This document shows positions 9,537 through 33,864 of a DNA stretch of 47,556 nucleotides, piece by piece. The notes beneath the pieces are model-generated. The model was not told the origin of the DNA. It was given only the letters and a program-made list of their open reading frames with translations, and did no database searches. The translations under genes and the position numbers were made by a program. The DNA is from Dethiosulfovibrio peptidovorans (lineage in GTDB: Bacteria > Synergistota > Synergistia > Synergistales > Dethiosulfovibrionaceae): NCBI GenBank assembly GCA_002748665.1, contig PDTB01000030.1:1-47556 (forward strand). The letters are read 5' to 3'. Within the stretch, counting starts at the first letter, position 1, and each line of letters starts with the position of its first letter.

Positions 9537-10553
9537 ATGAATTACTCAAGCGGCTTGTTTCCACTGGAAGCGACGGTCGAGAAAGAGAATAAACTCTTCG
9601 AAAAGCTGTGCCCCAACGCCAATTGGGATTTTTTTCTGTCAGGAAGATGCGGCATCTATCATTGCCTTCTCGATATCGTAAAAAACGACAAGAAAAAGGT
9701 CGCCTACCTGCCTTTATATACCTGCGAGACGGTGGTGGCACCCTTCGTGAAAGCAGGATACTCGCTTCGTTTTTACCCCTTCGACAGAAATATGCGACCG
9801 CTCTTTTCTGAAGATATCCTGGACGAAATAAGCCTGATCTCCATCTGCGGCTACTACGGTTTCTCCAATTACGACAGGGACTTCGTGAGAAAATGCAAAA
9901 CACGCGGCATTACTGTCATGGAGGATATAACCCATTCAGTGCTCTCCGCAGACGCTATCGATGAAAACTGCGACTACGCAGCCGGAAGCCTGCGTAAGTG
10001 GATGGGAGTCGCCTGCGGCGGCTTTGCGATGAAAAAAAACAGCAACTTCTCAAATACACCCATGAAGCCTCACGAACAACATTTACTGTTGAGATATGAA
10101 GCCATAGAACAGGACAGCGCCGATCTCTTCTGGGAAGGAGAGATGCTCTTGAGGCGTATTTTCGACGACTACGGCAGTGATGAGAAATCCGTGTATATCA
10201 TGAAATACGCCGACATTCCAACCATCTGCCGCAAAAGACGCGAGAACTACCAGTGTCTTCTGGAGCATGTCAAAGAGAGTGAAAATATCAGGATCGTCTT
10301 TCCCGTCCTCGACGAGAAGACCGTTCCCAGCCACTTTACCGTCTACGCCAAAGAAAGAAAAAATGTCCAGGCCCATCTGGAAGCTCTGGACATCAAATGC
10401 AAAATTTTTTGGCCTCAGGGGCCCTACATCGATTTGACCGATCAGCAGGACACTGCATATCTCTACAGTCACGTCATGAGCCTGCCATGCGATCAGCACC
10501 GCTCCCTGGAGGACATGAGAACTATAGCTGAGGTATTGAATAGCTGTTCATAG
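9537..10553 (+). CDS. DegT/DnrJ/EryC1-like PLP-dependent protein
   Basis: 338 residues from ATG 9537, six bases after AGGTG; an in-frame GTG at 9528 is less likely. It resembles fold-type I DegT-family aminotransferases. SGRCGIYHCLLDI (35-47) corresponds to the substrate/cofactor phosphate region. LPLYTCETVVAPF (58-70) matches the typical 'P.yt..v..a...aG' block. VMEDITHS (127-134) supplies the Asp130 expected to pair with the pyridine nitrogen. GSLRKWMGVACGG (150-162) places Lys154 where the Schiff-base lysine is expected. The usual GEGG after the lysine is replaced by ACGG. Reaction and substrate are unknown; context suggests a role in processing the compound imported upstream. Confidence 0.65.
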   Translation: MNYSSGLFPLEATVEKENKLFEKLCPNANWDFFLSGRCGIYHCLLDIVKNDKKKVAYLPLYTCETVVAPFVKAGYSLRFYPFDRNMRPLFSEDILDEISLISICGYYGFSNYDRDFVRKCKTRGITVMEDITHSVLSADAIDENCDYAAGSLRKWMGVACGGFAMKKNSNFSNTPMKPHEQHLLLRYEAIEQDSADLFWEGEMLLRRIFDDYGSDEKSVYIMKYADIPTICRKRRENYQCLLEHVKESENIRIVFPVLDEKTVPSHFTVYAKERKNVQAHLEALDIKCKIFWPQGPYIDLTDQQDTAYLYSHVMSLPCDQHRSLEDMRTIAEVLNSCS

Positions 10554-11262
10554 AATTTTTGCTGGCCTCTTCACGCAAATTGACACGGTAGATCTTTTCA
10601 CCCATGATTGCGTAGTGTGCGTCCAAACAGAGACATGAGTTCTCCAGACCGCCTTCCTTGAGGACGTTGAAAATGGCTTTATGAGCCTCGTAGTTGTTCT
10701 TGTGGCTGACAGCGTATTTATTGTCGCACGGTGCCTGAAAGACGTCGGCACCCAGTTTCTGCGCTCTCTTCACAGTCAGAAACATAGCTCCATTGAGAGG
10801 ACTGAGCATTTGCCACATTTTTGTTAAAAGAGATATTCCCCCCATGTTCACAATCTGGTAGTGAAACATCTCATCTGCGGCGATAATGGCTGTGAGAGAG
10901 TTTTCCTCACATGCTTTTTTCATCCGTTCTAGAGCAATGTCCATCTTAAAGATCGCCTCGCCGCTGAAGTGCCCGCCGCAACGCTCCAGAGCGATCTTCT
11001 CAAGGCTGCCCCGTATAAAAAAAATCTCATAGGCGTCCTTGGGCGATAGAGTCCTGACGGAGCACCCCTTGTTCGTTTTGTAGTCGACAAGCCCCTCAAA
11101 CATCAGTGTTTTCAGTGCATCACGCACCGGTCCCCGACTGACGTCCATCTCTTTGGCGACTTCAAGCTCCACTATTTTGTCATTGGGCTGCAACTCACCA
11201 TTCAGAATTTTATTTCTGAGATAAACCTCAACTTTTTTCGAAAGAGTTATTTTGGAGCCCAT
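10522..11262 (-). CDS. GntR-family transcriptional regulator, FadR/FCD type
   Basis: A 246-residue regulator. The N-terminal winged helix-turn-helix contains GELQPNDKIVELEVAKEMD and VSRGPVRDALKTLMFEGLV. The C-terminal all-helical FCD ligand domain runs from about residue 85 to 230, with the histidines and acids (DEMFHYQIV, YEAHKAIF, DAHYAIMG) that usually bind a metal and an organic acid. It is transcribed towards the PLP-protein gene and the two coding regions overlap tail to tail by 32 bp. GGGAGGGG precedes the ATG. It probably controls the ABC transporter-creatininase island and may use one of the palindromes at 2463 or 8609. Confidence 0.88.
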   Translation of the reverse strand: MGSKITLSKKVEVYLRNKILNGELQPNDKIVELEVAKEMDVSRGPVRDALKTLMFEGLVDYKTNKGCSVRTLSPKDAYEIFFIRGSLEKIALERCGGHFSGEAIFKMDIALERMKKACEENSLTAIIAADEMFHYQIVNMGGISLLTKMWQMLSPLNGAMFLTVKRAQKLGADVFQAPCDNKYAVSHKNNYEAHKAIFNVLKEGGLENSCLCLDAHYAIMGEKIYRVNLREEASKNSMNSYSIPQL

Positions 11263-11644: not shown

Positions 11645-12112
11645 ATGAACATACAACTGACCGTGAACGACCACTTCAGATCAGTGGAAATATCTCCAGC
11701 CGACCGACTCCTGGATCTCCTTCGAAATATGGGGCTTACCAGCGTCAAGGAGGGATGCTCTGAAGGGGAGTGCGGCGCATGCACCGTGATCATGGACGGT
11801 CGAGCTGTAACCTCCTGCACGGTCATGGCTTTTCAGGCTCAGGACTCAGAGATCATAACTTTAGAGGGGCTGGCACCGTCAGGAGAGCTGGACACGATCC
11901 AGCAGGCCTTTGTGGACAACGACGCCCTCCAATGTGGCTTCTGCAGCCCCGGTATGATCATGTCCATCAAGGCTCTTCTCATGGAGAAGTCCAACCCCAC
12001 GGAAGAGCAAGCACGTCGGGCCATTGAGGGGAATATCTGCCGCTGTACAGGCTACGTCCCCATCGTCCAGGCCATCATGGACGCAGCAGAGAGGCTCCGC
12101 CATGCAGGCTGA
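11645..12112 (+). CDS. Xanthine-dehydrogenase-family hydroxylase, [2Fe-2S] small subunit
   Basis: A 155-residue iron-sulfur subunit (XdhC/CoxS type) that passes electrons from the molybdenum site to the FAD subunit. The plant-ferredoxin-like cluster ligands are Cys38, Cys43, Cys46 and Cys58 (CSEGECGAC and TSC). The second cluster uses Cys97, Cys100, Cys132 and Cys134 (CGFC and CRC). Length and spacing match the family. It opens a tightly overlapping operon; its stop overlaps the start of the FAD subunit by 11 bp. The substrate of the holoenzyme is set by the large subunit. Confidence 0.95.
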   Translation: MNIQLTVNDHFRSVEISPADRLLDLLRNMGLTSVKEGCSEGECGACTVIMDGRAVTSCTVMAFQAQDSEIITLEGLAPSGELDTIQQAFVDNDALQCGFCSPGMIMSIKALLMEKSNPTEEQARRAIEGNICRCTGYVPIVQAIMDAAERLRHAG

Positions 12113-12953
12113 GTCTCCCACGTCGATTGAGCAGCTCACAAAAATCCTATCGAATGCCGACGATGACACCAGACTCATCGCCGGTGGAACCGATCTGGTT
12201 CTGTACCTGAGGCAACACCCCGCGCTGAATTTTTATCTGGTGAATCTTATGGGGATCCCTGAGCTCTCAATAATGAAAGAGGAAGGGGATGTGCTGTCAA
12301 TCGGTGCAACGACTCTCCACGCACAGCTTGAGCTATCTGAAATTGTGTACCATCACGCCAGAGCCTTATCATTGGCCGCTGCATCAGTGGGTTCACCACA
12401 GATACGCAACAGAGGCACCATCGGAGGGAACCTGGCTCATGCTTCGGGAGCGGCCGATACTGTCCCAGCTTTGTCCTGCCTTGAGGCAAGGGTCGTGATC
12501 GAGGACGTTCGAGGAAACACATCGCTCCACCCCGTTTGCGAATGTATCGCAGGACGAAATAAGACGATCCTTCGGCCGGATCAATACATACGATCGTTTC
12601 AAGTTCCTCTTCGGCCTCACGGCTACTCGGATTTTGCAAAGGTGGGGAGTCGTCGGGCCGTGACGATATCCAAAATCAACCTGGCCCTCAGTATTGACGA
12701 TCCGAGAAATATATCCTCTCCGGTCAGATTGTACGTTGGTGCCATTGCCCCAAGCCCCACCCGCTCTCCTGAAGGAGAAAAAGAGATATCGGCCCTGCTC
12801 AGGGGATCGGGAAACAAACGAGACTTTCTGGACGCTCTCTCCGAAACGGTCGAGCGGACCATTCCTACACGATCTTCCATGAAATATAAGAGAACCGCAA
12901 TCCGAGGTCTGGGCGACGATATATGGATTCGTCTCGAGGAGGTTTTGCTATGA
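12102..12953 (+). CDS. Xanthine-dehydrogenase-family hydroxylase, FAD subunit
   Basis: 283 residues from ATG 12102, overlapping the small subunit by 11 bp; an upstream in-frame start would lie inside that gene and is rejected. The FAD pyrophosphate-binding loops are LIAGGTDL near the N-terminus and TIGGNLAHASGAADT around residues 107-121, both typical of CoxM/XdhB proteins. Family members transfer electrons from the iron-sulfur subunit to an acceptor, NAD+ or another carrier in an anaerobe. Its last bases overlap the large-subunit start in an ATGA arrangement. Confidence 0.93.
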   Translation: MQAESPTSIEQLTKILSNADDDTRLIAGGTDLVLYLRQHPALNFYLVNLMGIPELSIMKEEGDVLSIGATTLHAQLELSEIVYHHARALSLAAASVGSPQIRNRGTIGGNLAHASGAADTVPALSCLEARVVIEDVRGNTSLHPVCECIAGRNKTILRPDQYIRSFQVPLRPHGYSDFAKVGSRRAVTISKINLALSIDDPRNISSPVRLYVGAIAPSPTRSPEGEKEISALLRGSGNKRDFLDALSETVERTIPTRSSMKYKRTAIRGLGDDIWIRLEEVLL

Positions 12954-15262
12954 CCAGTACGTGCAGGAACGTCGAAACCGAACAACTCCCTACATTCCCG
13001 GTGAACTTCCCCTCCATGACCGATGAGTGCAAATACGTAGGGCACGATGTACAGAGAAACGACATCGTTGAGAAATGCACCGGACGTCTCCGATACCTGG
13101 CCGACCGGCCAGATGGGGGCGTCGTTCATGCGCGACATATCCTCAGCTCCGTTGCCAACGGCAGAGTCATATCGATAGATCCGACCGAAGCGTTGAAAGT
13201 CCCGGGCGTCATCAAGGTTTACACCCCAGCGGATGATCCCGGCGAGACATACAACAGCGCCATCTTCCTGCCCGACCAGGTTGACCTTCGAGACGAGCGC
13301 GTCTTTACAGACCGACCGATTTTTGTTGGAGATGTCATCGGCGCTGTGGTCGCTGAGACCGACCACGCTGCTCGAGTTGCAGCTTCTCTGGTGCAGATTC
13401 AGTATGAAACCTACGACCCCGTGATCGATATGGTAGCAGCTCTCGAGGCTCCGTCGTTCCGGGAAGGCTTCCCCCAGGTCCTTGAGGGCTGCATCTCTTA
13501 TGGTGACGGACCACCCAAAAACGCAATTCACTTTGAAAGCACCGTGACCACTCCCAAGATCCACCACAGCGCCATGGAAAACCACATCTGTCAGGCTTCC
13601 CTAGAGTATGGAGATGTCCTACTGGTCGAATCTCCCTGTCAGATGATCTTCACGATTCGCTACGTCCTCTCCGAGCTGTTTCACAGACCGATCAACCGGA
13701 TACGGGTAGTCAAGTCTCCTATGGGCGGGACATTTGGAGCGAAGCAGGAGGTCTTGCTTGAACCGGCCTGTGCCCTGATAGCAATGGACCTTGCCCGCCC
13801 AGTCCGCCTCTCCATGGATCGCAGAGAAACCATCATCGGTACCCGAACCAGAGCCGCCACACGAGGAACCGTCACCACGTTCGTCGACAAAGAGGGGAAC
13901 TTCCTCCACCGGGATATACGATCCATCACGGACGCCGGCGCATATACCTCGGGGGGACACAGAGTCACTATGGCGATGGGGAAAAAAGCCTCTCGCCTCT
14001 ATACTCTTCCGTCCCAAAAATTTGTCGGCAAGACAACGTTCACCAACACGACCCCCAACGGGGCCTGTCGAGGATATGGCTCTCCTCAGATCCACACGAT
14101 AACCGAAATTCACATCGACCTTCTGGCGCGACACATTGGCATGGATCCGGTAGAAATTCGCATGAAGAATCTCGTTCACCCCGGCGACCCCGACCCGGCC
14201 GGAGGTACCCCCCTGGGCAATGCCCGAATACGGGACTGCCTGCGCCTTGGGGCTGAAGCCTTTCAATGGACCGAACGCCGTGACCTCTCACTGGTAACGG
14301 ATCGATATCGACAAGGCGTCGGTCTGGCGTGCTGCACGCACGGTAACGGCTATTACGGGTCCCCCTTCCCCGATTTTCTCTCCATGGCGATGCGATTCTG
14401 TGAGGACGGGACGGTTCTTGTAAACGCAAGCCTTCACGAGCTGGGCAACGGTACGCTGACCGTCATAGGACAGATTGTCGGAGAGATACTGAGCATCGAT
14501 CCCACGATGATTCACGTCACAGAAGGAGACACTCAGACAACACCTTTCGACGTGGGATGTGTCGCCAGCCGGGTGACATATGTCTGCGGCCCCTGCGCTC
14601 TCGACCTGGCTGAAAAACTGCGGGAGCGGTTCATCGGACAAATTTCCCGGGTACTCCAGGTCGAGCAACAATCTGTACAGATGAATGCTGGTCGAGTGAT
14701 CGTTCCCGAGTTGGGTGAATGGGGATACGGAGAGATGGTCTGCAGGATCGCTAAAGAACTCAGAGAGGAGGTGGGTGAATACCATCAGTACGCTCCCAGG
14801 ATGAACCCGGCATCCTACGGCGTGAACTTCGCCGAGGTGCAGGTGGACACCTTGACGGGGCTGATTCAGGTGACCGATTTTTTAGCGGTTCACGATGTGG
14901 GTAAGGCTATCAACCCAGCTATGGTCAGAGGACAGATCTACGGAGGCATTCAGATGGGCATAGGCATGGCCCTCACAGAGGAGCTTGTTTACGATAAACA
15001 GGGCCATCCCAAAAGCGACTCTCTCAGTCGATATCACATGATTAATGCCCCAGACATGCCTCCGATTCAGGTCATGCTCGTGGAAGAATACGAGCCTGGG
15101 GGGCCCTTCGGTGCCAAAAGTATCGGAGAGATCAGCACGGTTCCCACAGCAGCAGCTGTGGTTAACGCGGTCAACAGAGCCCTGGGAACATCCATGACGG
15201 ATCTGCCTTTGACTCCAGAGCGAGTTCTTCAGGCCATCGAACATACGCGAAGAGAGGAATGA
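12950..15262 (+). CDS. Xanthine-dehydrogenase-family hydroxylase, molybdopterin large subunit
   Basis: 770 residues from ATG 12950 (ATGA overlap with the FAD gene, CGAGGAGG ribosome site). The N-terminal 'hammerhead' domain carries VEKCTGRLRYLADRP. Mo-cofactor contacts include GGTFGAKQEVLLEPA, GACRGYGSPQ, and the C-terminal VGKAINPAMVRGQIYGG and GPFGAKSIGEIS, where the GE glutamate is the expected catalytic base. Such enzymes hydroxylate N-heteroaromatic rings or aldehydes with water as oxygen donor. Here the next gene encodes a histidine-lyase homologue, so the likely substrate is an imidazole or thioimidazole product such as (thio)urocanate or a hydantoin precursor, rather than a purine. 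That assignment is inference. Confidence 0.93.
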   Translation: MTSTCRNVETEQLPTFPVNFPSMTDECKYVGHDVQRNDIVEKCTGRLRYLADRPDGGVVHARHILSSVANGRVISIDPTEALKVPGVIKVYTPADDPGETYNSAIFLPDQVDLRDERVFTDRPIFVGDVIGAVVAETDHAARVAASLVQIQYETYDPVIDMVAALEAPSFREGFPQVLEGCISYGDGPPKNAIHFESTVTTPKIHHSAMENHICQASLEYGDVLLVESPCQMIFTIRYVLSELFHRPINRIRVVKSPMGGTFGAKQEVLLEPACALIAMDLARPVRLSMDRRETIIGTRTRAATRGTVTTFVDKEGNFLHRDIRSITDAGAYTSGGHRVTMAMGKKASRLYTLPSQKFVGKTTFTNTTPNGACRGYGSPQIHTITEIHIDLLARHIGMDPVEIRMKNLVHPGDPDPAGGTPLGNARIRDCLRLGAEAFQWTERRDLSLVTDRYRQGVGLACCTHGNGYYGSPFPDFLSMAMRFCEDGTVLVNASLHELGNGTLTVIGQIVGEILSIDPTMIHVTEGDTQTTPFDVGCVASRVTYVCGPCALDLAEKLRERFIGQISRVLQVEQQSVQMNAGRVIVPELGEWGYGEMVCRIAKELREEVGEYHQYAPRMNPASYGVNFAEVQVDTLTGLIQVTDFLAVHDVGKAINPAMVRGQIYGGIQMGIGMALTEELVYDKQGHPKSDSLSRYHMINAPDMPPIQVMLVEEYEPGGPFGAKSIGEISTVPTAAAVVNAVNRALGTSMTDLPLTPERVLQAIEHTRREE

Positions 15263-15267
15263 GGCTG

Positions 15268-16824
15268 ATGATAAAGGTAGTTTTGGACGGCACAAACTTG
15301 ACCCTCGATCTTCTTCGAAAAATTGCCTGTGAAGAAGTCGAAGTGGAGATTGCCCCCGACGGTCTTGAGCGGCTCAACGCCTCTCGCCAGCTTGTGAACG
15401 ACCTTGTCGAAAGCGATGTTCCCGTCTACGGATTCAACACCGGTGTAGGCTGGAACAAGGATCGTCATATCGCCTCGGACTATTTCAAAGCATACAATGA
15501 AAATCTCGTCCATTCCCACACACTGGGCATGGACCCCGAGGCCTCCGAGGCCGAGGTCCGGGCAGCTATGACCATCCGACTGAACTGTCTGCTGAGCGGA
15601 AATACGGGCGTCCAAGCGGCAATCGCACACCGCTACGTCGACTTTCTAAACCATCGCATCCATCCGGTAGTACCCGAACGAGGATCCATAGGTGAAGCCG
15701 ATATTACCGAACTCTCTCACATCGGTCTGGCCATGATCGGCGAGGGCGAGGTCATCTATCGTGGAGAGCGAATCTCCTCTAAGGAAGCTCACCAGAAAGC
15801 GGGACTCGATACGGTCATTCTGGGCCCGAAAGACGGCCTAGCCATCGTCAGCAGCAACGCCTTTGGAGCAGCTCAGGGAGCTCTTGTCCTGGCAGATCTC
15901 CTCGATCTCGTGGATCAGGCCGACCTGATCTACGCCGTTTCACTGGAGGGTTTGAACGGCAACGTCTCTCCTCTCAACGAAAAAACCAATGCCCTTCGCA
16001 GGATGCCTGGTCAGATCGTCAGCACAGGTAACGTACGACGCTTCCTTTCTGGCAGCTATATCGAGACACCTGACCCCCAACGCCCTGTACAGGATCCTTT
16101 GAGTTTCCGGGGCGGAGCCTACATACATGGTTCTCTGAGGGACGCCATGGAGTACGTGCTTCGTTATCTTCTCGTGCAGATGAATACATCAGACGACAAC
16201 CCGTGTATCCTGCTGGATGAACGACGTATCATATCCTGCTCTAACTTCGAGGTCACCACCCTCGCCGTCGGATTTGAGATGTTGGCCATCATGCTCAGCC
16301 ATGTATCGAAGGCCTCCTGCTATCGTTCCATCCGACTGAGTAACCCCGTTCTGACAAAACTTCCCAGATTCCTCACACCCGAGGAAACTCACGTACACGC
16401 CTTTGGCGCTCTGCAAAAGAGCTTCACCCTGCTTGACACCGAAATCCGCCATCTCTCAAACCCATCCACAGCGGATTTCTTCTCCCTTGCGGGAGGCATG
16501 GAGGACCACGCATCGAACCTTCCTCACGTGGCACAACGCCTTCGCAGGATCATCGACAACCTCAAATACATCCTGGGTATGGAGATGATCCACGGTGCCC
16601 AGGCCATAACCCTGCGCCGCCAGAAGAATCCTGATCTGCCTCTGGGGTGTGGGACAGAAGCGGCTTTCGATGAATTTCGCAAAAAGGTCTCCTGGTATGA
16701 CCGGGATCGCAACCTCTCTACGGACATCCAGATGGCCTATGAGGTGGTGAGAAGTGGACAGATGTTGAAAGCGGCGCGACAGACACGACAACAGGTATCT
16801 GAAAAGGCGGGAGCATCCCAATAA
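15268..16824 (+). CDS. MIO-less histidine-ammonia-lyase homologue, candidate ergothionase
   Basis: 518 residues from ATG 15268; ATG 15259 is also possible but sits one base from the AGAGAGGA ribosome site. It has the aromatic amino acid lyase fold throughout: VYGFNTGVG with Tyr54, the NSLL/NC-like LNCLLSGNTG, EGLNGN, and MEDHAS near the C-terminus. The position that forms the MIO electrophile, Ala-Ser-Gly in GSVGASGDL, reads GSIGEADIT (139-147), so MIO cannot form. Established knowledge: ergothionase (ergothioneine trimethylammonia-lyase) is a HAL relative that lacks MIO, because trimethylamine is already a good leaving group. The next gene is a betaine-type transporter, which supports that activity on ergothioneine or hercynine. 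A canonical hutH occurs 6 kb downstream. The protein could also act on another betaine. Confidence 0.72.
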   Translation: MIKVVLDGTNLTLDLLRKIACEEVEVEIAPDGLERLNASRQLVNDLVESDVPVYGFNTGVGWNKDRHIASDYFKAYNENLVHSHTLGMDPEASEAEVRAAMTIRLNCLLSGNTGVQAAIAHRYVDFLNHRIHPVVPERGSIGEADITELSHIGLAMIGEGEVIYRGERISSKEAHQKAGLDTVILGPKDGLAIVSSNAFGAAQGALVLADLLDLVDQADLIYAVSLEGLNGNVSPLNEKTNALRRMPGQIVSTGNVRRFLSGSYIETPDPQRPVQDPLSFRGGAYIHGSLRDAMEYVLRYLLVQMNTSDDNPCILLDERRIISCSNFEVTTLAVGFEMLAIMLSHVSKASCYRSIRLSNPVLTKLPRFLTPEETHVHAFGALQKSFTLLDTEIRHLSNPSTADFFSLAGGMEDHASNLPHVAQRLRRIIDNLKYILGMEMIHGAQAITLRRQKNPDLPLGCGTEAAFDEFRKKVSWYDRDRNLSTDIQMAYEVVRSGQMLKAARQTRQQVSEKAGASQ

Positions 16825-16898
16825 TATCAAAAAACGTTCTGCTTCTGACATAAATGGACAGGAGTGCAAAATCCAAACTCAGGGAGGTTATGGTTAAC

Positions 16899-18497
16899 AT
16901 GGGAAATCAACGGAACGAACAAGACGGAAACAATAAGATACCCAACACGGAGGGAAACGTAACAAAACGGATACGCTGGTCCGTCTTCCTGCCAGCCTAC
17001 CTCGTCGTAGGCGGAGCCGCCCTGCTGGGACTCCTGAGCAAGGAGGCCCTCACCAAAGGAACCAACGCTTTCTTTTTCTGGTCACTGGACAGTTTCGGCT
17101 GGCTCTATCAGCTCTCGATCATGGCAGCAGTCGTCCTGGTCGCCATCGTATTCCTGTCAAAAATCGGGAGTATGCGCTTGGGTGGCAAAGACGCCAAACC
17201 GAAATACAGTTTCTGGACCTGGTTTGCCATGACCCTCACCGGCGGTGTAGCGACTGGCATCGTTACATGGGGGGTCAACGAACCTCTGATCTACTATGGA
17301 AACGTATGGGGTGAACTGAATCAATTGGGTATCGAGCCCAACACCCATAAGGCCGCCATCTTCGCCATGGCCCGCAGTTTTTACAACTGGACCTTCGTCC
17401 CCTACGCCATCTACGCACTGTGCGGTCTTCTCGTTGCCTATATCTACTACAACAAAAGGGACAAACTGAACGTGACGACAACCCTCAAACCGATCTTTGG
17501 AGAACGGGTCACCCGAGGCGCTTTCTCCTCCATCATCGACACCCTGTCCATGCTGGCCCTGGCTATCGGTCTGACCACCGGACTGACCATGTGCATTACA
17601 CTCGTCATGGGAGGACTCAAAAGCGGATACGGCATCGAGGGAGACCTGGCTATCTTCATGGTAATCGGTATCTTTCTTATCGTCTCTTTCACCTTTTCCT
17701 CCTACATAGGTATGGACAGAGGCCTGAAGGCCCTCGGGAACCTGAACGCCTGGTTCTATTACGGTCTCTTGGCTCTTCTTCTCCTCACGGGCCCCCTGAC
17801 GTACATCGTCAGGACCTCCACGGCCGGCTTGGCGCAGTGGCTGAATAACTTCTGGCTTTGGGGCCTGGATCCCATCGATATCGGAGGCGAAGCCCTGGTT
17901 CGATCCTGGACCCTCTTTGACTGGGCTTTCTGGGTCGGTTATGCCCCCGTTACGGGGATTTTCCTGGCCATGATCTCCTATGGCAGAACGGTCCGAGAGT
18001 ACATGGTGGTCAACTGGATTCTTCCGTCCATATTCGGGCTGATCTGGTTCAGCATCTGGGGAGGCAGCGCGCTCCACATGCAGGCCACGGGGGGCGCTGA
18101 TCTGATCGGGGCGATCAACAGCGGCGGAGCCATCATGGCCCTCTGGGAATTCCTCAAGCACCTGCCTTTCGGACTCGGAGCTATCGTGGTACCGGTCAAC
18201 ATCTTCGTGATCCTGATCTCCTTCATCACGAACGCCGACGCTACTTTGACTAACATCGGATCTATGTGTGTAAAAGACGTTCCAATCGGAACCGAGCCTC
18301 CTGCAAAATTAAAGGCATTGTGGGGTATCTCCGTGGGCATCGTGGCCATCATCATGGCGGCTTTCGGCAGAGGAACTCAAGGTGTGGACGGTGTCAAGGC
18401 CCTGGCTGCCGCCGCAGGTTTTGTGGTCCTTTTCATCTTCGCCCTGCAGATCCTCGCCTTTATCAAAACGTTCTTCATCGAGAAAATTGTGGAATAA
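16899..18497 (+). CDS. BCCT-family (betaine/carnitine/choline) transporter
   Basis: About 532 residues from ATG 16899, eleven bases after AGGGAGG; ATGs at 16854 and 16890 are in frame but badly spaced. There are about 12 membrane segments. WTWFAMTLTGGVATGIVTWGV covers the glycine-rich TM3 region that binds substrate and ion in BetP/CaiT. SWTLFDWAFWVGYAPVTGIF (TM8) and ISYGRTVREY match the BCCT signature. In that signature some tryptophans of the usual FYWAWWISWSP box are replaced (Phe and Tyr), implying an altered substrate. Known BCCT substrates are quaternary ammonium or sulfonium compounds, so ergothioneine or hercynine import fits the neighbouring lyase. It is the last gene of the operon. 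Confidence 0.88.
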   Translation: MGNQRNEQDGNNKIPNTEGNVTKRIRWSVFLPAYLVVGGAALLGLLSKEALTKGTNAFFFWSLDSFGWLYQLSIMAAVVLVAIVFLSKIGSMRLGGKDAKPKYSFWTWFAMTLTGGVATGIVTWGVNEPLIYYGNVWGELNQLGIEPNTHKAAIFAMARSFYNWTFVPYAIYALCGLLVAYIYYNKRDKLNVTTTLKPIFGERVTRGAFSSIIDTLSMLALAIGLTTGLTMCITLVMGGLKSGYGIEGDLAIFMVIGIFLIVSFTFSSYIGMDRGLKALGNLNAWFYYGLLALLLLTGPLTYIVRTSTAGLAQWLNNFWLWGLDPIDIGGEALVRSWTLFDWAFWVGYAPVTGIFLAMISYGRTVREYMVVNWILPSIFGLIWFSIWGGSALHMQATGGADLIGAINSGGAIMALWEFLKHLPFGLGAIVVPVNIFVILISFITNADATLTNIGSMCVKDVPIGTEPPAKLKALWGISVGIVAIIMAAFGRGTQGVDGVKALAAAAGFVVLFIFALQILAFIKTFFIEKIVE

Positions 18498-18500
18498 ACA

Positions 18501-18535
18501 CGAACGCCCCGACCGCTAAACGGTCGGGGCGTTCG
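18501..18535. terminator. Perfect 15-bp hairpin ending the Mo-hydroxylase/lyase/BCCT operon
   Basis: CGAACGCCCCGACCG (18501-18515) and its exact complement (18521-18535) enclose loop CTAAA. The following sequence GTCTAT is T-poor, so termination efficiency is uncertain, but the GC-rich stem directly after the transporter stop marks the operon end. Confidence 0.7.
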
Positions 18536-18685
18536 TCTATGCCATCTGCCGTCTGAAACCAATCTCTCTGACCTGGAATGAACAGCTCAGTACAACATAG
18601 TCAAAACGACGGACGCGAAAACCTCTCAAAAAGGTCATACTACAAAAGCAAGATGCAGGAGAGATATGAAAGAGAGGTACATATC

Positions 18686-19777
18686 ATGCGATTCGGAGTT
18701 TTGCTGATCGTGGCGGGAGCTCTATGTCTCGGGATGTTCCCGATCAGGGGCACTCAGGCCGGAGAAACTGGGACACTCCCGTCGAACCCCAACAATGGCA
18801 CCACCTTTGACGAGAAAAACATCAGAGAAGTTGTGCTGGCCGGTGGGTGTTTTTGGGGCGTCCAGGCCTTTATGGATCGAGTGCCAGGAGTCGTATCGAC
18901 CAAGGTGGGGTACGCCAACGGGGTGACCGAGACACCTACCTATCAGGCGGTCTGTCGAGGCGATACGGGATACGCCGAGGCGGTCATGGTACGGTACGAC
19001 ATATCGAGACTACCCCTGCAAAAGCTTCTTGAGGCTTTTTTCGCCATCATCGATCCGACGACCATCAACCGTCAGGGTGGGGATTCCGGGTATCAGTACA
19101 GAACCGGAGTCTATCTGACTGGCCCCACGGCAGATCAGGATCGGTTCGTGAGCAAAATGGTCTTTGATAAGCAGGCCCAGAAATACACCAAGCCTTTGGC
19201 GGTAGAGCTCGAACCCCTGAAGAACTTTTACACCGCCGAGGAATACCACCAGAAATATCTCGAGAAAAACCCAGGAGGCTATTGCCATGTCGACTTCGGT
19301 CATCTCGACAACATCTCCACCAGCGACGAAAAGCGAACGTACGTACGCCCTCCTGGCGAGGAGCTGAAAAAGAGGCTCACCGATCTCCAATACAGGGTCA
19401 CCCAGCAATCTGCCACCGAACCGGCTTTCTCCAGTCCCCTGAACCACAAGGATGAGCCAGGCATCTACGTGGACATCGTCACGGGAGAACCCCTATTCTC
19501 CTCCACAGCCAAGTTCGACTCCGGGTGCGGTTGGCCCGCCTTTTGGGAACCCATCGACGCCGGAGTACTCAAGAAATTGGTTGATACGAGCCTCGGCATG
19601 ACTCGTATCGAGGTTCGAAGCACCGCCGGTGACAGCCACCTGGGGCACGTCTTTCCAGATGGCCCCCGGGATAAGGGAGGCCTACGATACTGCATCAACG
19701 GGGCCTCGTTGCGTTTTATCCCCCTGGCCGACCTCGAAAAAGAGGGATACGGCCGATACCTGCATCTTTTTAAATGA
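18686..19777 (+). CDS. msrAB: Exported bifunctional methionine sulfoxide reductase MsrAB
   Basis: 363 residues from ATG 18686, where AGAGAGGT precedes and a signal peptide ([20 protein letters not shown], cleavage probably near TQA-GE) begins; the open frame extends 36 codons further upstream without reason. The MsrA domain carries catalytic Cys55 in GCFWG (54-58) and the GYANG and GDTGYAEAV blocks. The MsrB domain follows with [21 protein letters not shown] and catalytic Cys in RYCINGAS. The fusion repairs both stereoisomers of methionine sulfoxide in exported proteins. It ends convergently with the large regulator, overlapping its 3' end by 8 bp. Confidence 0.94.
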
Positions 19778-22700
19778 GCCTCCTCAACAGTTGAACCTTG
19801 TGGTCGATCTCCATATCCCTGTACAAGGCGAGAGAGTCCTCAAGGTACTCTCTCGCCGAACGGGACAGACCCATATCCCCCGCTCGCTCCACACCTGACT
19901 GGGCGGCGATAACCCCCTTGACCCACAAGTGAAGGGCCAGCCAAAATCTCTTATGAAGTGGCACACAGAGCCGATCTCCCTGCTCGAGCATCCAGCGACA
20001 CCGATCTCTGTCGCCCTCCTGCCAGGCTCGAAGGGCTGAAAGGCTGAAGAGAATTGAGTTGCCCCGACGCCTTTCCAAAAAGGAATGGGCGGCTCTAAGA
20101 TGGTGATCCATAACATCGCCCTCATTCAGATCAAGGGCAACGTGAGCTGCGTTGCTGCGAAAGAGACAGAGCCCTCGGAAAAACCCCTCAGCCTCACAGG
20201 CATCGATACACGCCTCGTATATGTTCAAGGCATCGGAAAGTCGACCGGTACGGTGAGCGATGTCTCCCAGATAGCTATTAGCTGCTATGATCTGCAGCGT
20301 GTAGGGTGCGTCCAAAGCCTCGATGGTCTCAAAACGCTCAATTGATGATCGAAGGAGCCGTTCGGCTAGATCGTATTCTCTGGCGAACATCCTGGACATG
20401 CCCAGAAATCGGAACGCCATGGCCTTGGCAGGTGCGTTACCACAGCGACCGGCTACGCCGCTCAGACGCTTGGCGTAAGCCGACAAAAATCGGCTATCCT
20501 CAATCTGAATTCCGTAGTAGCAGAGATGCTGAAGCGACTCAAGCGCCAACTCCCACTCCCCCATGGTCGTCGCCTGATCCAGAGCCGATCGGACCAATAC
20601 CTTGCCAGGGTCGTACTCACCCCACCAGAGGCGGTACCCACCGCTCAGGGCCAGAAAGAGAACCTCCATACGGCGAAGCCGGTCAATATCGGAACAGGGA
20701 CCGTTCTTCAGACTGCGTATAAGACTCTTCGCTCCGTTCAGAAGCTCAATAGTCTGTTCCATCGTCTCGAAAGAGGAGGAAGATCGCCGCAAAACGTCGT
20801 CGTTCAAAAGAGGAAAAAGCTCGTAGTTTAAGGTAATGTGACGTCTCAGCCGCATCAACGTATACTCAAGCTCATCCAGTGGCTCCCCGGCTCTGTGACA
20901 ATGATGGATCACCCTGGAACAGGCCAGGTCGTTCCAGAATCGCCCAGCCAGGTCGGCTTTCAGAATCGTGGCTAAAGATCCGTGGATCAACTGACGTCGA
21001 GCGTGAGACATCCGCCGATACACGTACTCCTTCAATGTACCGTGACTGAAATCAAGGCATGATCTCCCACCGACGTTCCGCTCCAGGACGATGGACTGGG
21101 CTACAAGTTCCTCGACAAGGTCAACCAATCGCCGCATCGGGAGCTCAGACACCTGCTGAAGGATACCCAGATCGGCAGGGACGGAAAACGCCGAAAGCCA
21201 CTCGATAAGCGACAGCCCGTCATCGGCCAGATCCATGAGATGCACCTCAAGAGCCTCGGAAAGACGCACAGGGATCTCGTCCACAGACCGTCCAGAAGCG
21301 AGAAGACGGATGGATTCCACGAGAAACAACGGAAGCCCCTCGGTCTGAGCATAGATGCGATCCAAAGCCTCAAGAGACGGGCTTCGGCCAAGCAGCGCAG
21401 CACGGCAAAATTCCCGGGTTTCTTCCCTGGAGAAACACTTCAGGTTCAAATCGAACAGGGATACGCTTCCGTTCTTTTCAACATCACGAAAAAATCTGAC
21501 CGAAAACGGAGAGCCATAGCTTCGGGTCGTGAAGAAAAAATCGACGTTCGAGGGACTATGGAGCAACACGCCCTCCATCACCTTCCACGAGCCCTCGTCA
21601 AGCCATTGAAGATCCTCAATGACGAGGGATACCCGTCTTCCCGCCCCGAAGCGGTCCAACACCAGGGCAACCAATGCCCCAATCCTGGCCAGAGGGACAT
21701 GCTGAGAGGCCATACACTGAATCTTCAGGGATGGGAAAACTTCTCCAAGAAGACACAAGACAGAGACAGGCAAATCCAGATCCTCCAGATCAACCTGCTG
21801 GGCAAGGCTTTCCATAATTCCATCCCAAGGTAGCAAAGGATGGGTTGCATCTCTCAAAGCACGACCAATGATCACCGGCCCCTCAAATCTCAGAGACTCG
21901 ACAGCCTTGGCGACAAGCCTGCTCTTTCCTACCCCTGCCTCTCCAGAAACGTAGACACATCGAGGTCCGTCACAGTTCCTCTGTAAAAATATCCTGATCT
22001 GCTCCAATTCACGACCTCGACCGAAAAACGGGACCAAGGACGAGCCCCCATTATTCTGTCTTTTCTCAGGAGATGAGCACACATTCAACGAGATCGCAGC
22101 TCGATAGGTCTCCTGAGTTTCCTGGGACGGAGCAAGTCCCAACTCGTCATCGAGCTTCCGCTCTAAATACCTGTAGGATTCGACAATCCGACTCTTGAGT
22201 CCCAGAGCTGAGAGACAGAGAAATCGTCGTTGATAGAGTTCTTCGTTCAGATCGTCGAGGTCGATGACAAAATCGAGGACAGAGAGAGCGTTTCGATGAT
22301 CTCCACACGCCATCAGAGATCGAACCCTCTGCCTCGTCCCCTCACGATAGCGTTGAGATACGTTTCGCCTCATCGATTCGAGCCACCGTTCGAATCGGGG
22401 ACACTGAGGTAAAGAGACACTCTCCATAAAAGGCCGGGAAAGCTCCTTAAGCTCAAGATCGGAGACGGATTCCAACTCGTCCAGTTTTTTCAAATCCACA
22501 TCCACATCGCCCAAGTCCAGATCGACCCAATGCCGATCAGCCAGCACAGCCCTATCTGGAAAAACACACCGAAGCTGGTACAAGGCGTTTCTCAAATTTC
22601 TAAAAGCCAGAGGCCCCGGACGATCTCCCCAGAACATATCCGCCAGAAGTTCTCTGGACGACCGTCCCTCCACAGTGAGGAAACAGGCCAAAACCATTAC

Positions 22701-22778
22701 CTTTTGAAACGAGAAAAAGACCTCTCGACCATTCACAGAAAAACACGGTTTTCCCAGAAGCCTCACCTTCCACGACAA
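19770..22778 (-). CDS. BTAD/SARP-type regulator with AAA ATPase and TPR-like domain
   Basis: About 1002 residues if translation starts at TTG 22778, which lies 7 bases after GGGAGGA; the frame is open 29 codons further upstream without a ribosome site. The N-terminal 100 residues resemble the winged-helix of SARP-type activators ([19 protein letters not shown]). A bacterial transcriptional activation domain follows (to about 250), then a STAND/AAA ATPase with Walker [10 protein letters not shown] and Walker [12 protein letters not shown], and a helical TPR-like C-terminus. Such proteins are signal-integrating activators. It is divergent from hutH and convergent with msrAB. It could control hutH or the lyase operon; the sequence does not say which. 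Confidence 0.82.
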
Positions 22779-22917
22779 TGCTCTCTCCTCCCTTATATAT
22801 ATTATATACGAGGGAAGCTCATTATCACGATATAACTTATTACAACACCGCGACGTAGAGATCACGAATCACATAAGCGCCGATGAGATGTAATTTTTGG
22901 ATAAATCTAGAATCAAC

Positions 22918-23013: not shown

Positions 23014-24546
23014 ATGAGGAATACGGTGGTTATCGACGGACATTCTCTTACCCTTCAGGACGTACTTAACGTAGCACGAGGGGGATACGCTATCGAGTTG
23101 AGCCCGTCCGCTATTGAGGTGGTACGTACCGCCTCGTCGCTCATACAGAAATGGGTGGACGAAAACCGGATCATCTATGGTGTGACCACAGGCTTCGGAG
23201 ATCTATCCACGGTGAACGTGGACAGAGACAAATGTGTTCTGCTCCAAGAAAATCTTCTCCGGAGCCACGCCGTGGGTGTCGGTACTCCCCTGCTACCGGA
23301 GACCGTCCGAGCCATCATGCTCCTCCGAATCAACGGCCTCACAGCTGGCCATTCAGGTATAACGCTGGAGACTCTTACTCAGATGGTCAACTTTCTCAAT
23401 CTGGACATCATACCTGTGGTTCCATCCCAGGGCTCCGTCGGTGCCAGTGGTGACCTCTGTCCCCTTTCTCACATCGCAGTCGCTATGCTCGGTGAAGGCG
23501 ATGTCATCCACAAGGGCGTCCGAAAGTCGGCCATGGAAGCCATGTCCGAAGAAGGGCTGGGGCCTATTCACCTTCACCCCAAAGAAGGGCTTGCCCTGAA
23601 CAACGGTACGGCAGCTTTAACTGGCCTGGGAGTCATGGCCTTCTGGGAGGCAGTTAATCTGATCAAAACCGCCGACATCGCTGGTGCCCTCTCTCTGGAG
23701 GCGCTCCACGGCGTTCCCTACGCATTCGACCAGCGAACCCACGCCCTCCGGCCCCATCAGGGGCAGCTGGACGTCGCCGCTAACATCCGCAACCTCATCG
23801 ACGGCAGTGCCATCATCGAGGCATTCAAGCACGAACGGGTTCAGGATGCCTACTCCCTTCGGTGTATGCCAATGGTCCATGGTGCCACCAGAAACGCTCT
23901 CGCCTTCGTCAGAAGCTCCATCGAGCTGGAGATGAACTCCGTCACAGATAACCCTCTCATCTTTCCCGATTCGGAGGACGTCATCAGCGGGGGAAACTTC
24001 CACGGCCAGCCTATCGCCCTTCCGATGGACTTTTTCGGCATTGCAGTAGCAGAGCTGGGAAGCATCTCAGAACGCAGGGTGGCCCGTATGGTGGATAAAA
24101 ACCTCTCTAACGGCCTTCCCCCCTTCCTCATCAGGGACAGCGGCGTTAACAGTGGATTCATGATATCTCAGTACACGGCTGCAGCCATCGTCTCTGAGAA
24201 CAAAACGCTGGCCCACCCCGCCTCGGTGGACTCCATCCCCACCTCTGCCAACCAGGAAGACCACGTATCCATGGGATACTGGGCATCTCTGAAGGGAACC
24301 AGAATCCTGAGAAACGTTCAGAAGGTGCTGGGCATCGAGGTGCTGTGTGCCTGTCAGGGAATCGACTTCTCCAAACCGCTTCAACCCGGCAAGGGAACCA
24401 AAGCGGCCTACGATCGTATCCGTCAGGATATACCTTTCCTGGAAAAGGATATTTTCCTCCACCCTCTTATGGAACAGGCCATCCAGCTTGTGCGATCCGG
24501 TGAGATCGTCCGGGCCGTAGAGGAGAATCTCGGAGTTTTACTGTAA
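23014..24546 (+). CDS. hutH: Histidine ammonia-lyase
   Basis: A 510-residue canonical HAL, converting L-histidine to trans-urocanate and ammonia, the first step of histidine degradation. The MIO-forming Ala144-Ser145-Gly146 sits in GSVGASGDLCPLSH, and Tyr55 in IIYGVTTGFGD is the catalytic base. EALHGVPYAFDQRTHALRPH and SANQEDHVSMG are further HAL-specific blocks. A strong AAGGGGGG ribosome site precedes the ATG. The gene is paired with a transporter and is separated by about 7 kb from the rest of the hut genes. It contrasts directly with the MIO-less paralogue at 15268-16824. Confidence 0.97.
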   Translation: MRNTVVIDGHSLTLQDVLNVARGGYAIELSPSAIEVVRTASSLIQKWVDENRIIYGVTTGFGDLSTVNVDRDKCVLLQENLLRSHAVGVGTPLLPETVRAIMLLRINGLTAGHSGITLETLTQMVNFLNLDIIPVVPSQGSVGASGDLCPLSHIAVAMLGEGDVIHKGVRKSAMEAMSEEGLGPIHLHPKEGLALNNGTAALTGLGVMAFWEAVNLIKTADIAGALSLEALHGVPYAFDQRTHALRPHQGQLDVAANIRNLIDGSAIIEAFKHERVQDAYSLRCMPMVHGATRNALAFVRSSIELEMNSVTDNPLIFPDSEDVISGGNFHGQPIALPMDFFGIAVAELGSISERRVARMVDKNLSNGLPPFLIRDSGVNSGFMISQYTAAAIVSENKTLAHPASVDSIPTSANQEDHVSMGYWASLKGTRILRNVQKVLGIEVLCACQGIDFSKPLQPGKGTKAAYDRIRQDIPFLEKDIFLHPLMEQAIQLVRSGEIVRAVEENLGVLL

Positions 24547-30903: not shown

Positions 30904-31635
30904 GTGGTTGATAGACGGACAAAACTGGATGCGGTGGACAAGGTGGTGACCATCATGGACGAGCTCTGTGCCTCGTCCGGCCCCCTGAGCATTCGAGAGA
31001 TCGAGAGGAAAACCGGGGTTCCAAGAAGCACCGCTCACCGGTTTATCGCCTCTCTGGAGCGCCGGGAGTGGATTCACCGGGACGGCGAGAGCGATCGATA
31101 TCGACCCGGCATCCGTTTTTTTCTCCTTCAGCGTAATGACTCGTTCTACGAGGAACTCGTTCGAATAGCCCATCCGATCATGGAACGCCTCACGAAATCC
31201 ACGAAGAAAACGGCAATCATGAGCGTCCTTGAGAGAGATGTCGGGCTGTGTCTTCACAGCGTGGAGCCGCCCATGTCCATGAAATTCGTAGCTCACAAGG
31301 GGATGAAGATACCTCTGGACGTAGGTGCCACCGGCAAGGTCCTTCTGGCCTTCGCTCCGGAAAGGATTCGAAACGACTTTTTGAACTCCTTGAGGGCTGA
31401 GCGTCGTAGATCTCTCAAAACCGAACTTGATGAGATCCGTGAACAGGGGTACGCCTTCAGCAGGGAAGAATGGATATCCCATGCCGGGGATATCAGCGTC
31501 CCCATCTGGAACACGAACGGCGCTTTCGTCGCACAACTGGGCATCGCCGGACTCGTGTCCAGCTTCGACGACAGAGAACAAGAGCTTACTCAACAGGTCA
31601 AGGAGGCCGCAGGAGAGATCGGGCAGGCCCTGTAA
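30904..31635 (+). CDS. IclR-family regulator of the histidine-degradation operon
   Basis: 243 residues from GTG 30904, seven bases after GGAGGA; TTG 30889 overlaps the ribosome site. The N-terminal winged HTH reads LSIREIERKTGVPRSTAHRFIASLERR. The C-terminal IclR effector domain includes GKVLLAFAPER and HAGDISVPIWNTNGAFVAQLGIAG. It is the first gene of a co-directional run ending in hutU. It probably represses this operon and itself through the overlapping inverted repeat, with urocanate or another intermediate as likely effector (inference). Confidence 0.88.
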   Translation: MVDRRTKLDAVDKVVTIMDELCASSGPLSIREIERKTGVPRSTAHRFIASLERREWIHRDGESDRYRPGIRFFLLQRNDSFYEELVRIAHPIMERLTKSTKKTAIMSVLERDVGLCLHSVEPPMSMKFVAHKGMKIPLDVGATGKVLLAFAPERIRNDFLNSLRAERRRSLKTELDEIREQGYAFSREEWISHAGDISVPIWNTNGAFVAQLGIAGLVSSFDDREQELTQQVKEAAGEIGQAL

Positions 31636-31699
31636 TTCCGGTACAGCTCTATCAAACCTGAAAAATCAGTCACAACAGAGATATCAGGAGGAGGAAACC

Positions 31700-32617
31700 A
31701 TGGCAAAACAGCTCATTGAGTGCGTGCCCAATTTCAGCGAAGGGCGAAGAAAAGACGTTATCGAGGCCATCGTTCACCCCTTCAAGAACCAAAGGGGATG
31801 CTACCTTTTTGATTATCGGGCCGACGAGGATCACAACAGGCTCGTGGTGAGTCTGGCCGGAGAACCTCAACCCATCTGCGACGCCGTCATGGCAGCCTCC
31901 AGGGTTGCCGTGGAGTCGATAGACCTGAACACACATCAGGGCGCCCATCCCCGCATGGGAGCGATCGACGTCATCCCCTTTACCCCCATCAACGGCATCT
32001 CGATGGAAGAATGCATCGACCTGGCCCGAAACTTCGGCGAGCGCTTTCATCGGGAGCTGAACGTGCCTGTATATTACTACGAGGAAGCCGCACTCCGTCC
32101 TGATCGAAGGAGGCTTGAGGTCATCCGCAAGGGTCAGTTCGAGGGCCTCAAGGAGGAGATCACGCAACCGGAGCGCCATCCCGACCTGGGAGAGCCAGCT
32201 CTTCACCCCACAGCAGGAGCCACGGTCATCGGCGCCAGGAAGTTCCTCGTCGCCTTCAACGTCAACCTGAACACCACCGACGTGGACATCGCCAAGGCCA
32301 TAGGTAAGCGAGTTCGAGCCTCGGGCGGCGGGTTCACCGCTGTCAAGGGAATCGGTCTGGCCCTTGAGGACAAGGGCATGGTCCAGGTAAGCATGAACAT
32401 CGTGGATTACGACAAAACAGCGATCTACCGGGCTCTGGAGTTCATCCGTATGGAGGTCGCCCGATGGGGCGTCACGATCAACGGAACCGAGGTATACGGG
32501 ATGATCCCCGCTGCCGCCATATTGGACAGCGCAGCCTACTACATGCAGATCGACGATTTCAACCCCAACCAGGTTCTGGAACTGAAGCTTCTGGAGCTCA
32601 TGCGAGAAGAGGACTGA
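31700..32617 (+). CDS. ftcD: Glutamate formimidoyltransferase
   Basis: 305 residues from ATG 31700 behind AGGAGGAGGAA; upstream in-frame codons overlap iclR and are not used. It transfers the formimino group of N-formimino-L-glutamate to tetrahydrofolate, releasing glutamate. CVPNFSEGR opens the N-terminal domain, and THQGAHPRMGAIDVIPF contains the conserved catalytic histidine region. This is the single-domain form: the cyclodeaminase half found fused in animals is a separate gene two loci downstream. It lies in the operon iclR-ftcD-hutI-fchA-hutU. Confidence 0.95.
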   Translation: MAKQLIECVPNFSEGRRKDVIEAIVHPFKNQRGCYLFDYRADEDHNRLVVSLAGEPQPICDAVMAASRVAVESIDLNTHQGAHPRMGAIDVIPFTPINGISMEECIDLARNFGERFHRELNVPVYYYEEAALRPDRRRLEVIRKGQFEGLKEEITQPERHPDLGEPALHPTAGATVIGARKFLVAFNVNLNTTDVDIAKAIGKRVRASGGGFTAVKGIGLALEDKGMVQVSMNIVDYDKTAIYRALEFIRMEVARWGVTINGTEVYGMIPAAAILDSAAYYMQIDDFNPNQVLELKLLELMREED

Positions 32618-32619
32618 CC

Positions 32620-33864
32620 ATGACAGCCACACTCTTTCACAACGCGTCCATTACGACGCCTATCAGTGGAAACTCACCCCTCGCCGGCCCTGAGCAGGGG
32701 CAAGTCACGACCTTCGAGGAAGGCGCCCTGCTCTGTGAGAACGGATTCATCGCCGCCGTGGGAAATCGTGACTCGGTGTTCGCCGTTGCCGACAGCGCCG
32801 ACGTGGACATGGAGGTGGACTGCGAGGGTGCATGCATGATACCGGGATTCGTCGATCCCCACACTCACATCTGCTTCGCTAAACGACGAGAGAGGGAGTT
32901 TTCCATGCGTTTGGCGGGGACTTCGTACCTTGAGATCCTCAAGGCCGGCGGCGGTATTTTATCATCGGTCCGCTCCGTCCACGAGGCCTCCGAGGACGAT
33001 CTCTTCGAGACGACCCTGGACAACGTCCTTTCAGCGCTGAACTTCGGCACCACAACCATGGAGATCAAAAGCGGCTACGGACTGACCACCGAGTCGGAGC
33101 TCAAGATGCTCTCGGTCATCGACAGGATCGCCCGGGAGACCCCTTTGGACATCGTTCCGACCTTCATGGGAGCCCATGCCGTGCCCTCCGAGTACAAGGA
33201 CAATCCCGACGATTTCGTGGATATCCTCGTGGACGAGATGCTTCCGGCAGTGGCCCAACAGGGGATCGCCCGATACTGCGATGTCTTTTGCGAGGAGGGA
33301 GTCTTCTCGGTAGCTCAGAGCCAACGGATCCTTGAGGAAGCTCGTAGGCTGGGTTTTTTACTCCGAATTCACGCCGACGAGGTTCACGACCTTGGAGGGG
33401 CAGGTCTGGCTGCCCAGATGAGAACCATCTCGGCGGAGCATCTCCTGGCCGCTAACGAGGCGAATCTCAGAGCCATGGCCGATCAGGGCGTGATAGCTAA
33501 CGTGCTTCCCGCGACCGCCTACAGCCTCAAAAAACCCTATGCCCCGGTCCGTACCATGATCGACCTGTCGGTACCTGTCGCCCTGGCCACGGACTGTAAC
33601 CCGGGATCATGCTTCACCGAGTCGATGCCTTTCATCTTCGGCCTTGGCGTTATGAACATGAACATGACCATAGAGGAAGCACTCGTCGCCGTCACGTTGA
33701 ATTCGGCCTGGTCTGTCGGCCTTCAGGACAAGGTAGGAAGCCTTGAAGCAGGCAAACAAGCCGACTTTCTTCTGCTTGACGGGGAAACCCCGGCTGTATT
33801 GGCCTACCACGCCGGCGTCTCACCGGTCACAGAAGTGTACAAGAAAGGCGTTCACGTAGCGTAA
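32620..33864 (+). CDS. hutI: Imidazolonepropionase
   Basis: 414 residues from ATG 32620, two bases after the ftcD stop, so the two are probably translationally coupled. It hydrolyses 4-imidazolone-5-propanoate to N-formimino-L-glutamate. It is an amidohydrolase-superfamily protein with metal site PGFVDPHTHICFAKRRE, substrate-arginine region GRREREF-like, MEIKSGYGL, HADEVHDLGGA and ATDCNPGSCF, each characteristic of HutI. Normal full length. Confidence 0.96.
   Translation: MTATLFHNASITTPISGNSPLAGPEQGQVTTFEEGALLCENGFIAAVGNRDSVFAVADSADVDMEVDCEGACMIPGFVDPHTHICFAKRREREFSMRLAGTSYLEILKAGGGILSSVRSVHEASEDDLFETTLDNVLSALNFGTTTMEIKSGYGLTTESELKMLSVIDRIARETPLDIVPTFMGAHAVPSEYKDNPDDFVDILVDEMLPAVAQQGIARYCDVFCEEGVFSVAQSQRILEEARRLGFLLRIHADEVHDLGGAGLAAQMRTISAEHLLAANEANLRAMADQGVIANVLPATAYSLKKPYAPVRTMIDLSVPVALATDCNPGSCFTESMPFIFGLGVMNMNMTIEEALVAVTLNSAWSVGLQDKVGSLEAGKQADFLLLDGETPAVLAYHAGVSPVTEVYKKGVHVA

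Follow-up and report, generated by a model that had tools for sequence, protein, structure and literature searches.

We identified in Dethiosulfovibrio peptidovorans, on a 47,556-nucleotide stretch of contig PDTB01000030.1 (the window), a five-gene operon located entirely on the + strand (positions 11645-18497), which probably encodes an anaerobic pathway of ergothioneine catabolism. In the proposed pathway, a BCCT carrier would import ergothioneine, a lyase lacking the 4-methylideneimidazole-5-one (MIO) group would split it into thiourocanate and trimethylamine, a three-subunit molybdenum (Mo) enzyme would convert thiourocanate reductively to urocanate and H2S with electrons passing via flavin adenine dinucleotide (FAD) and 2Fe-2S centers, and urocanate would be led by HutU, HutI, and FtcD, encoded in the same window, towards glutamate. 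A divergent GntR protein and a neighboring SARP-type protein are candidate regulators.

The operon comprises genes for the 2Fe-2S subunit of the Mo enzyme (11645..12112; Pfam Fer2 and Fer2_2), its FAD subunit (12102..12953, start taken from the sequence; FAD_binding_5), its molybdopterin subunit of the xanthine-oxidase family, a candidate thiourocanate desulfhydrase (12950..15262; MoCoBD_1/2 and Ald_Xan_dh_C), the MIO-less, ergothionase-type trimethylamine lyase (15259..16824; Lyase_aromatic), and the BCCT carrier, a candidate ergothioneine importer (16854..18497, start perhaps at 16890; BCCT). A check of the sequence found all five open reading frames (ORFs) intact at the coordinates given by a first-pass annotation of this DNA, and all of them exceeded the Pfam cut-offs of the families named, which bears out the gene content it had described: three Mo-enzyme subunits, a lyase of the histidine ammonia-lyase (HAL) fold, and a BCCT protein. 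The overlaps of 4 to 11 bp and short gaps that it had listed were also recovered. The 2Fe-2S and FAD genes overlap by 11 bp (FAD ATG at 12102, 2Fe-2S stop at 12110-12112), the FAD and Mo genes by 4 bp (ATGA at 12950, with AGGAGG immediately 5'), and the Mo and lyase genes by 4 bp (ATGA at 15259), while the gap between the lyase and BCCT genes is 29 bp for the start at 16854 or 65 bp for that at 16890, where the ribosome site looks better. The strong hairpin said to close the operon folds as claimed (18500..18536, 3' of the BCCT gene; 16-bp stem, minimum free energy -39.3 versus -20.1 for shuffled sequences, z -6.5), and no second copy was found elsewhere in the window. The role of a plain terminator was rejected for it, since the + strand lacks a T-run there; only on the - strand did the scan rate it as terminator-like.

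The lyase matched Lyase_aromatic, the HAL-fold domain, with an E value of 5e-136, and its top match in the PDB was the crystallized ergothionase of Treponema denticola (6s7j; E 6e-160; 249 of 493 residues identical, 50.5%), the runner-up being a probable HAL (7tqr; 1e-63). With 355.7 bits against a cut-off of 539.15 for the NCBIfam hutH model, it is not a histidine ammonia-lyase by that model. The MIO triad, already described as absent by the first-pass annotation, is missing from it (GSIGEA-DIT, where the HutH encoded at 23014..24546 reads GSVGASGDL), and none of 44 ergothionase-type rows has the ASG triad. In a tree of 54 lyases, 43 ergothionase-type rows including 6s7j formed a single clade (100/100) that excludes the 11 rows of HutH type, so that the earlier assignment to the ergothionases is supported by the best PDB match, the identity, and the shared clade alike. 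The motifs YGFN, QKSF, and EDHASN align with YGLN, QKTF, and EDHASN of 6s7j; we take them to hold the catalytic Tyr, Lys, and Glu. The window lyase retains the T. denticola GVGWN, SIGE-DIT, QKxFT, and EDHASN with small changes, such as SIGEA for SIGEG, whereas the class-B lyases, which are paired with the same Mo lineage, have GVGVN, GVGAN, or GVGIN in place of GVGWN and EDRGNN or EDRGCN in place of EDHASN; the motifs of the class-C lyases differ as well. The closest named locus in one search of 25 lyase loci was that of a Synergistales metagenome-assembled genome (76%). Judging by its 50.5% identity to the characterized enzyme, the window lyase is predicted to act on ergothioneine.

A second MIO-less, HAL-like group, with GSVGY---L replacing GSVGASGDL, was observed separately. 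Its copies are found in the genome of the window (G000:C21:15890-17392; loci L004 and L172) and in L007 (2517-4007), L009 (11400-12902), L053 (399-1898), L132 (3253-4731), and L135 (4814-6307), and five copies lie in stretches holding the ergothionase operon. The top NCBIfam models for this group are those of histidine ammonia-lyase, and three of the four copies scanned fell under both HutH-model cut-offs. The copy in the window's genome lies near genes for a sodium:solute symporter and a 4Fe-4S protein, and L053 shows the same set.

We then determined how the operon genes co-occur in 101 genomes, our own and 100 relatives. The lyase (E <= 1e-90) was present in 17 of them and the Mo subunit (E <= 1e-150) in 24, including all 17. 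The Mo subunit thus accompanied the lyase in 17/17 genomes versus 7/84 of the others (Fisher p 4e-14), and hutU (E <= 0.001) in 17/17 versus 60/84 (p 0.01), with both p values overstating independence because the genomes are related. In two wider samples, lyases matching that of the window at E <= 1e-90 were found in 7 of 391 genomes of one class (two of them closer to HutH) and in 5 of 241 genomes of one order; a linked Mo gene went with the lyase in 17/17 cases among the 101 genomes and in 5/5 and, within the fetched stretches, 3/5 cases in the wider samples.

The gene neighborhoods gave the same picture. We compared 46 non-redundant loci (counted after removal of L062 and L110 as duplicates), 38 of which carry a lyase of the ergothionase type (identity of 36% or more over 70%); since the loci were mostly fetched for holding the lyase, its partners, not the lyase itself, are the test. 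From the 25 loci of one lyase search, L006-L011 entered this comparison and L012-L030 fit HutH better; L065, L069, L108, L109, L131, and L138 are on short contigs or at contig ends. The Mo gene was found in 28 of the 38 lyase loci, a BCCT gene in 25, both in 21, and neither in six (L008, L010, L011, L074, L075, and L076), so relatives do not consistently lack either the carrier or the presumed hydroxylase of the first-pass annotation, and the presence of the Mo gene in 28 stretches puts the layout beyond chance. The linkage was seen in three phyla, Synergistota (L006), Spirochaetota (L007), and Bacillota (L009). In L136 the lyase is identical to 6s7j at 491 of 493 positions (99.6%) and the gene order is lyase-BCCT-XdhC-MocA-like-Fer2-FAD-Mo; a near-identical copy of the crystallized ergothionase therefore shares its partners with the window lyase. 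A 754-amino-acid ORF beside the L051 lyase was rejected as a further partner enzyme, as it has no Pfam match and its translation resembles a shadow ORF.

The top PDB match of the Mo subunit was the alpha subunit of 4-hydroxybenzoyl-CoA reductase (4-HBCR; E 2e-66). None of the NCBIfam cut-offs for XdhA, XdhB, and XdhC was reached (558, 138.6, and 176.5 bits versus 780, 310, and 217, respectively), and the FAD subunit fell far below that for 4-HBCR beta (72.7 versus 404.55 bits). In a quick tree, which carries a long-branch warning, the linked Mo proteins from lyase loci and Mo-only loci, that of the window included, formed a 36-row clade (quick SH-like approximate likelihood ratio test, 100) that leaves out 30 rows, namely, 25 paralogs from the relatives, E. 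coli XdhA and XdhD, and three Mo genes of L057-L059. The latter, found in three genomes at about positions 6000-9100, represent a second Mo gene of another lineage (31% to the window Mo protein) that lies with a Fer2 gene directly beside the lyase. An active-site glutamate, which we take to correspond to bovine E1261, is conserved in 35/35 linked proteins and 30/30 others. A glutamine at a second site, presumably bovine Q1040, is present in 0/35 linked proteins versus 19/30 others, a difference that is suggestive only. The presumed xanthine-binding residues were discarded as functional proof, for they differ in the linked proteins but also in many paralogs.

The direction of the reaction is suggested by published work. 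According to the sections available of PMC12771579, a gut xanthine-oxidase homolog cleaves an aromatic C-S bond reductively in ergothioneine catabolism, and the corresponding parts of PMC13405746, citing the same 2025 JACS work, state that thiourocanate desulfhydrase releases H2S. These reports give no support to the "ring oxidation at molybdenum" of the first-pass annotation. By analogy, the Mo enzyme of the window is probably a reductive thiourocanate desulfhydrase, and its product would be urocanate.

Since urocanate would be the product of the Mo step, the operon would be expected to go with hut genes, and the window holds a set of these, all on the + strand: an ordinary histidine ammonia-lyase, HutH, with an intact MIO triad (23014..24546; 663.6 bits, cut-off 539.15), glutamate formimidoyltransferase, FtcD (31427..32617; TIGR02024, 396.3 bits, cut-off 221.25), imidazolonepropionase, HutI (32464..33864; TIGR01224, 454.5 bits, cut-off 298.15), an FTCD_C/FchA-like cyclodeaminase or cyclohydrolase (33899..34534; PF04961, with NF045657 under its cut-off), and urocanate hydratase, HutU (34539..36593; TIGR01228, 433.5 bits, cut-off 375). 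For FtcD and HutI the coordinates are those of the longest ORF, and the start is probably later. HutU was rejected as a thiourocanate hydratase, since it scored 295.5 bits against the NF058530 cut-off of 930 while passing the hutU model. No protein exceeded the NF058530 cut-off in any of the 27 genomes with the lyase and Mo genes, our own included; two of seven other genomes or records did have one, both proteobacterial (a Burkholderia arboris plasmid and a Cardiobacteriaceae record), and neither has a linked-type Mo gene in its stretch. A urocanate product fits the co-occurrence with hutU, the hut genes in the window, and the absence of the hydratase from the lyase-plus-Mo genomes. Two earlier proposals, a route different from the hydratase type and an entry of its products into the hut pathway, are thereby strengthened. 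The same genome carries a second hut set (HutH, HutU with 631 bits, and HutI) with its own SARP-type regulator at G000:C6:16923-26777.

A comparison with loci of the same genus revealed a conflict between the histories of the operon genes. L063 and L066 have the gene order of the window (Fer2-FAD-Mo-lyase-BCCT, SARP, HutH, NhaC), and the identity of the window proteins to those of L063 is 76% for Fer2, 58% for FAD, 72% for Mo, 48% for SARP, 82% for HutH, and 83% for NhaC, while it is 46% for the lyase and 34% for BCCT. The nearest relatives of the window lyase and carrier (82% and 88%) are those of L051, which belongs to a different family of the order, and the Mo tree places the window with its own genus. 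The approximately unbiased (AU) test rejected both a position of the window Mo protein among the class-A Mo rows (p 6e-56) and one of its lyase with the class-B lyases (p 1e-7), the groups for both tests having been named after the trees were seen. From the tree conflict and the L063 and L051 identities, we conclude that the lyase and BCCT pair was exchanged at this site and the Mo enzyme retained, so that the lineage of the lyase and carrier differs from that of the Mo enzyme. An ORF at 18578-19777, between the operon and the SARP-type gene, reads as a fused MsrA-MsrB-like protein; it has no counterpart in the L063 stretch and was perhaps replaced along with them. The simplest reading would be that both front ends deliver the same product to the Mo enzyme. 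One and the same Mo lineage is found with two lineages of lyase-BCCT pairs and with a third lineage of lyases, near the proteobacterial ones.

The BCCT domain of the carrier (E 2e-106) agrees with its earlier description as a betaine-class transporter, and its linkage to the lyase suggests that it may import ergothioneine. In the excerpts of PMC12689799, deletion of betP in Corynebacterium glutamicum marginally raised ergothioneine output and slightly raised its intracellular level as well, and import by BetP was suggested. Another match to a search for BCCT and ergothioneine, PMC10971958, has ergothioneine only in a reference in the text available, and the sole match to a search for ergothioneine, molybdenum, and urocanate together concerns rice bran, judging by its title and abstract. 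In the lyase locus L128 (13605-15578), which comes from the sampled class, we also observed a methyl-accepting chemotaxis protein whose binding domain is of the glycine-betaine type (OpuAC), a candidate ergothioneine chemoreceptor; L129 (12645-14618) has a counterpart by size and position, the domains having been scanned in L128 only.

Two regulators flank the operon, both on the - strand. The divergent GntR/FCD protein (10522..11262; GntR and FCD domains) is a possible local regulator by its position, and the SARP-type protein of 1031 amino acids (19770..22865; BTAD and AAA_16, weak TPR) is a candidate for both the operon and the hut genes. The latter had 40 matches in 14 genomes, most of which were picked since the regulator had already been seen beside the operon; 22 of the best 23 matches lay within 10 kb of the lyase, Mo gene, or hutU, versus 3 of the other 17. 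In the unselected part, 9 of the 23 best matches were away from the operon, eight by hutU and one by neither. This suggests that one SARP-type regulator family may serve both the ergothioneine operon and hut routes.

Several observations weigh against the proposed pathway. Besides the relatedness of the genomes, seven genomes have the Mo gene with no lyase over the threshold; in three of these (G018, G021, and G049) a lyase of a third type (33-39%) lies no more than 2 kb from it, in two (G070 and G088) the Mo gene is on 7-kb contigs, and in the remaining two (G027 and G041) no ergothionase-type lyase was found within the fetched stretch. Conversely, for ten of the 38 lyase loci the stretch fetched shows no Mo gene (L008, L010, L011, L051, L054, L074-L076, L137, and L138). 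Of these, L138 lies on a contig of 6.3 kb, and the genomes behind L008 and L051/L054 carry the Mo gene elsewhere. As for the lyase itself, five of the 11 HutH-type tree rows also lack the MIO triad, whose absence alone is therefore not diagnostic, and the window lyase belongs to a clade of 13 rows (100/99) that adjoins the T. denticola clade but does not lie within it. Finally, the Mo protein is likened to the gut enzyme by description only.

Three other explanations were considered. Hydroxylation of the ring of thiourocanate or urocanate by the Mo enzyme, as the first-pass annotation had it, accords with the mostly oxidative chemistry of the family (PMC12771579, sections available) and with the active-site glutamate shared by all linked proteins and all others. 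We nevertheless regard it as unlikely, for a reductive, C-S-cleaving homolog is reported from an ergothioneine pathway in those same sections, urocanate as the product accounts for the link to hut and for the regulator family common to both, and the glutamine missing from the linked proteins points the same way, if only suggestively. The lyase might instead act mainly on hercynine or another aromatic betaine, the product of which the Mo enzyme would modify. The substrate is not readable from sequence, and class-B lyases with altered active-site motifs are paired with the same Mo lineage, yet the motifs of the window lyase stay close to those of T. denticola, and this explanation, too, seems improbable. 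Hercynine is the less likely substrate because it would yield urocanate directly, leaving no use for the Mo enzyme, which is kept in all 17 lyase genomes. That a carrier for osmolytes, a Mo enzyme of the purine type, and a lyase are encoded side by side by coincidence, as independent genes, is hardly credible; BCCT and xanthine-dehydrogenase families are common, but the linkage recurs in three phyla and beside the near-identical copy of the crystallized ergothionase, and the Mo tree separates the linked proteins, as a single clade, from the other 30 rows. Ergothioneine catabolism with reductive desulfuration is accordingly the explanation that we favor.

The proposed pathway resembles known systems to differing extents. 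Feng et al. (JACS 2025), whose work is known to us through citing papers, reportedly described an ergothioneine pathway of gut bacteria in which, likewise, a xanthine-oxidase homolog releases H2S from the thiourocanate that ergothionase forms. The T. denticola ergothionase (6s7j and 6s7q) has the same MIO-less HAL fold and motifs, and the L136 locus with its near-identical lyase shares the partners of the window, differing in that the XdhC and MocA-like genes lie inside the L136 operon and outside that of the window. In the window they are found at 44804..45889 (MocA-like NTP transferase, a candidate for Mo-cofactor maturation; PF12804 and NF045665 passed, TIGR03310 for mocA missed) and 46523..47323 (XdhC-family maturation factor; PF13478 and PF02625, the single match in the genome), both on the + strand. 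The first enzyme in the hydratase route of Burkholderia-type loci is also a MIO-less lyase (in L074, 41.5% to that of the window), but L074 has a thiourocanate hydratase about 1.4 kb from the lyase (NF058530, 1049.7 bits) and no linked-type Mo gene in its stretch. 4-HBCR and urolithin C dehydroxylase, Ucdh, belong to the same Mo family and act reductively according to the available text of PMC12771579, with substrates that differ from the thiourocanate proposed here. Elsewhere in the window, at 2965-9433, genes for oligopeptide/nickel-type ABC permeases and a binding protein are followed by one for a creatininase-family hydrolase, by appearance a separate catabolic cluster.

Chemistry of this kind has already been reported from gut bacteria (2025), and what is new here is the swapped front end and the link to a SARP-type regulator. 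A more general model, which we put forward tentatively and consider rather doubtful, would have a fixed core of Mo C-S reductase and hut enzymes served by interchangeable front ends, with class-B and class-C front ends bringing in other 2-thio- or 2-seleno-histidine betaines, e.g., selenoneine, the SARP-type family shared with hut, and the BCCT proteins acting as dedicated importers. Ergothioneine is a diet-derived antioxidant, and its microbial conversion to trimethylamine in the gut is debated; the trio of lyase, Mo enzyme, and BCCT carrier provides markers for a better census of this conversion and names a candidate importer and a candidate regulator.

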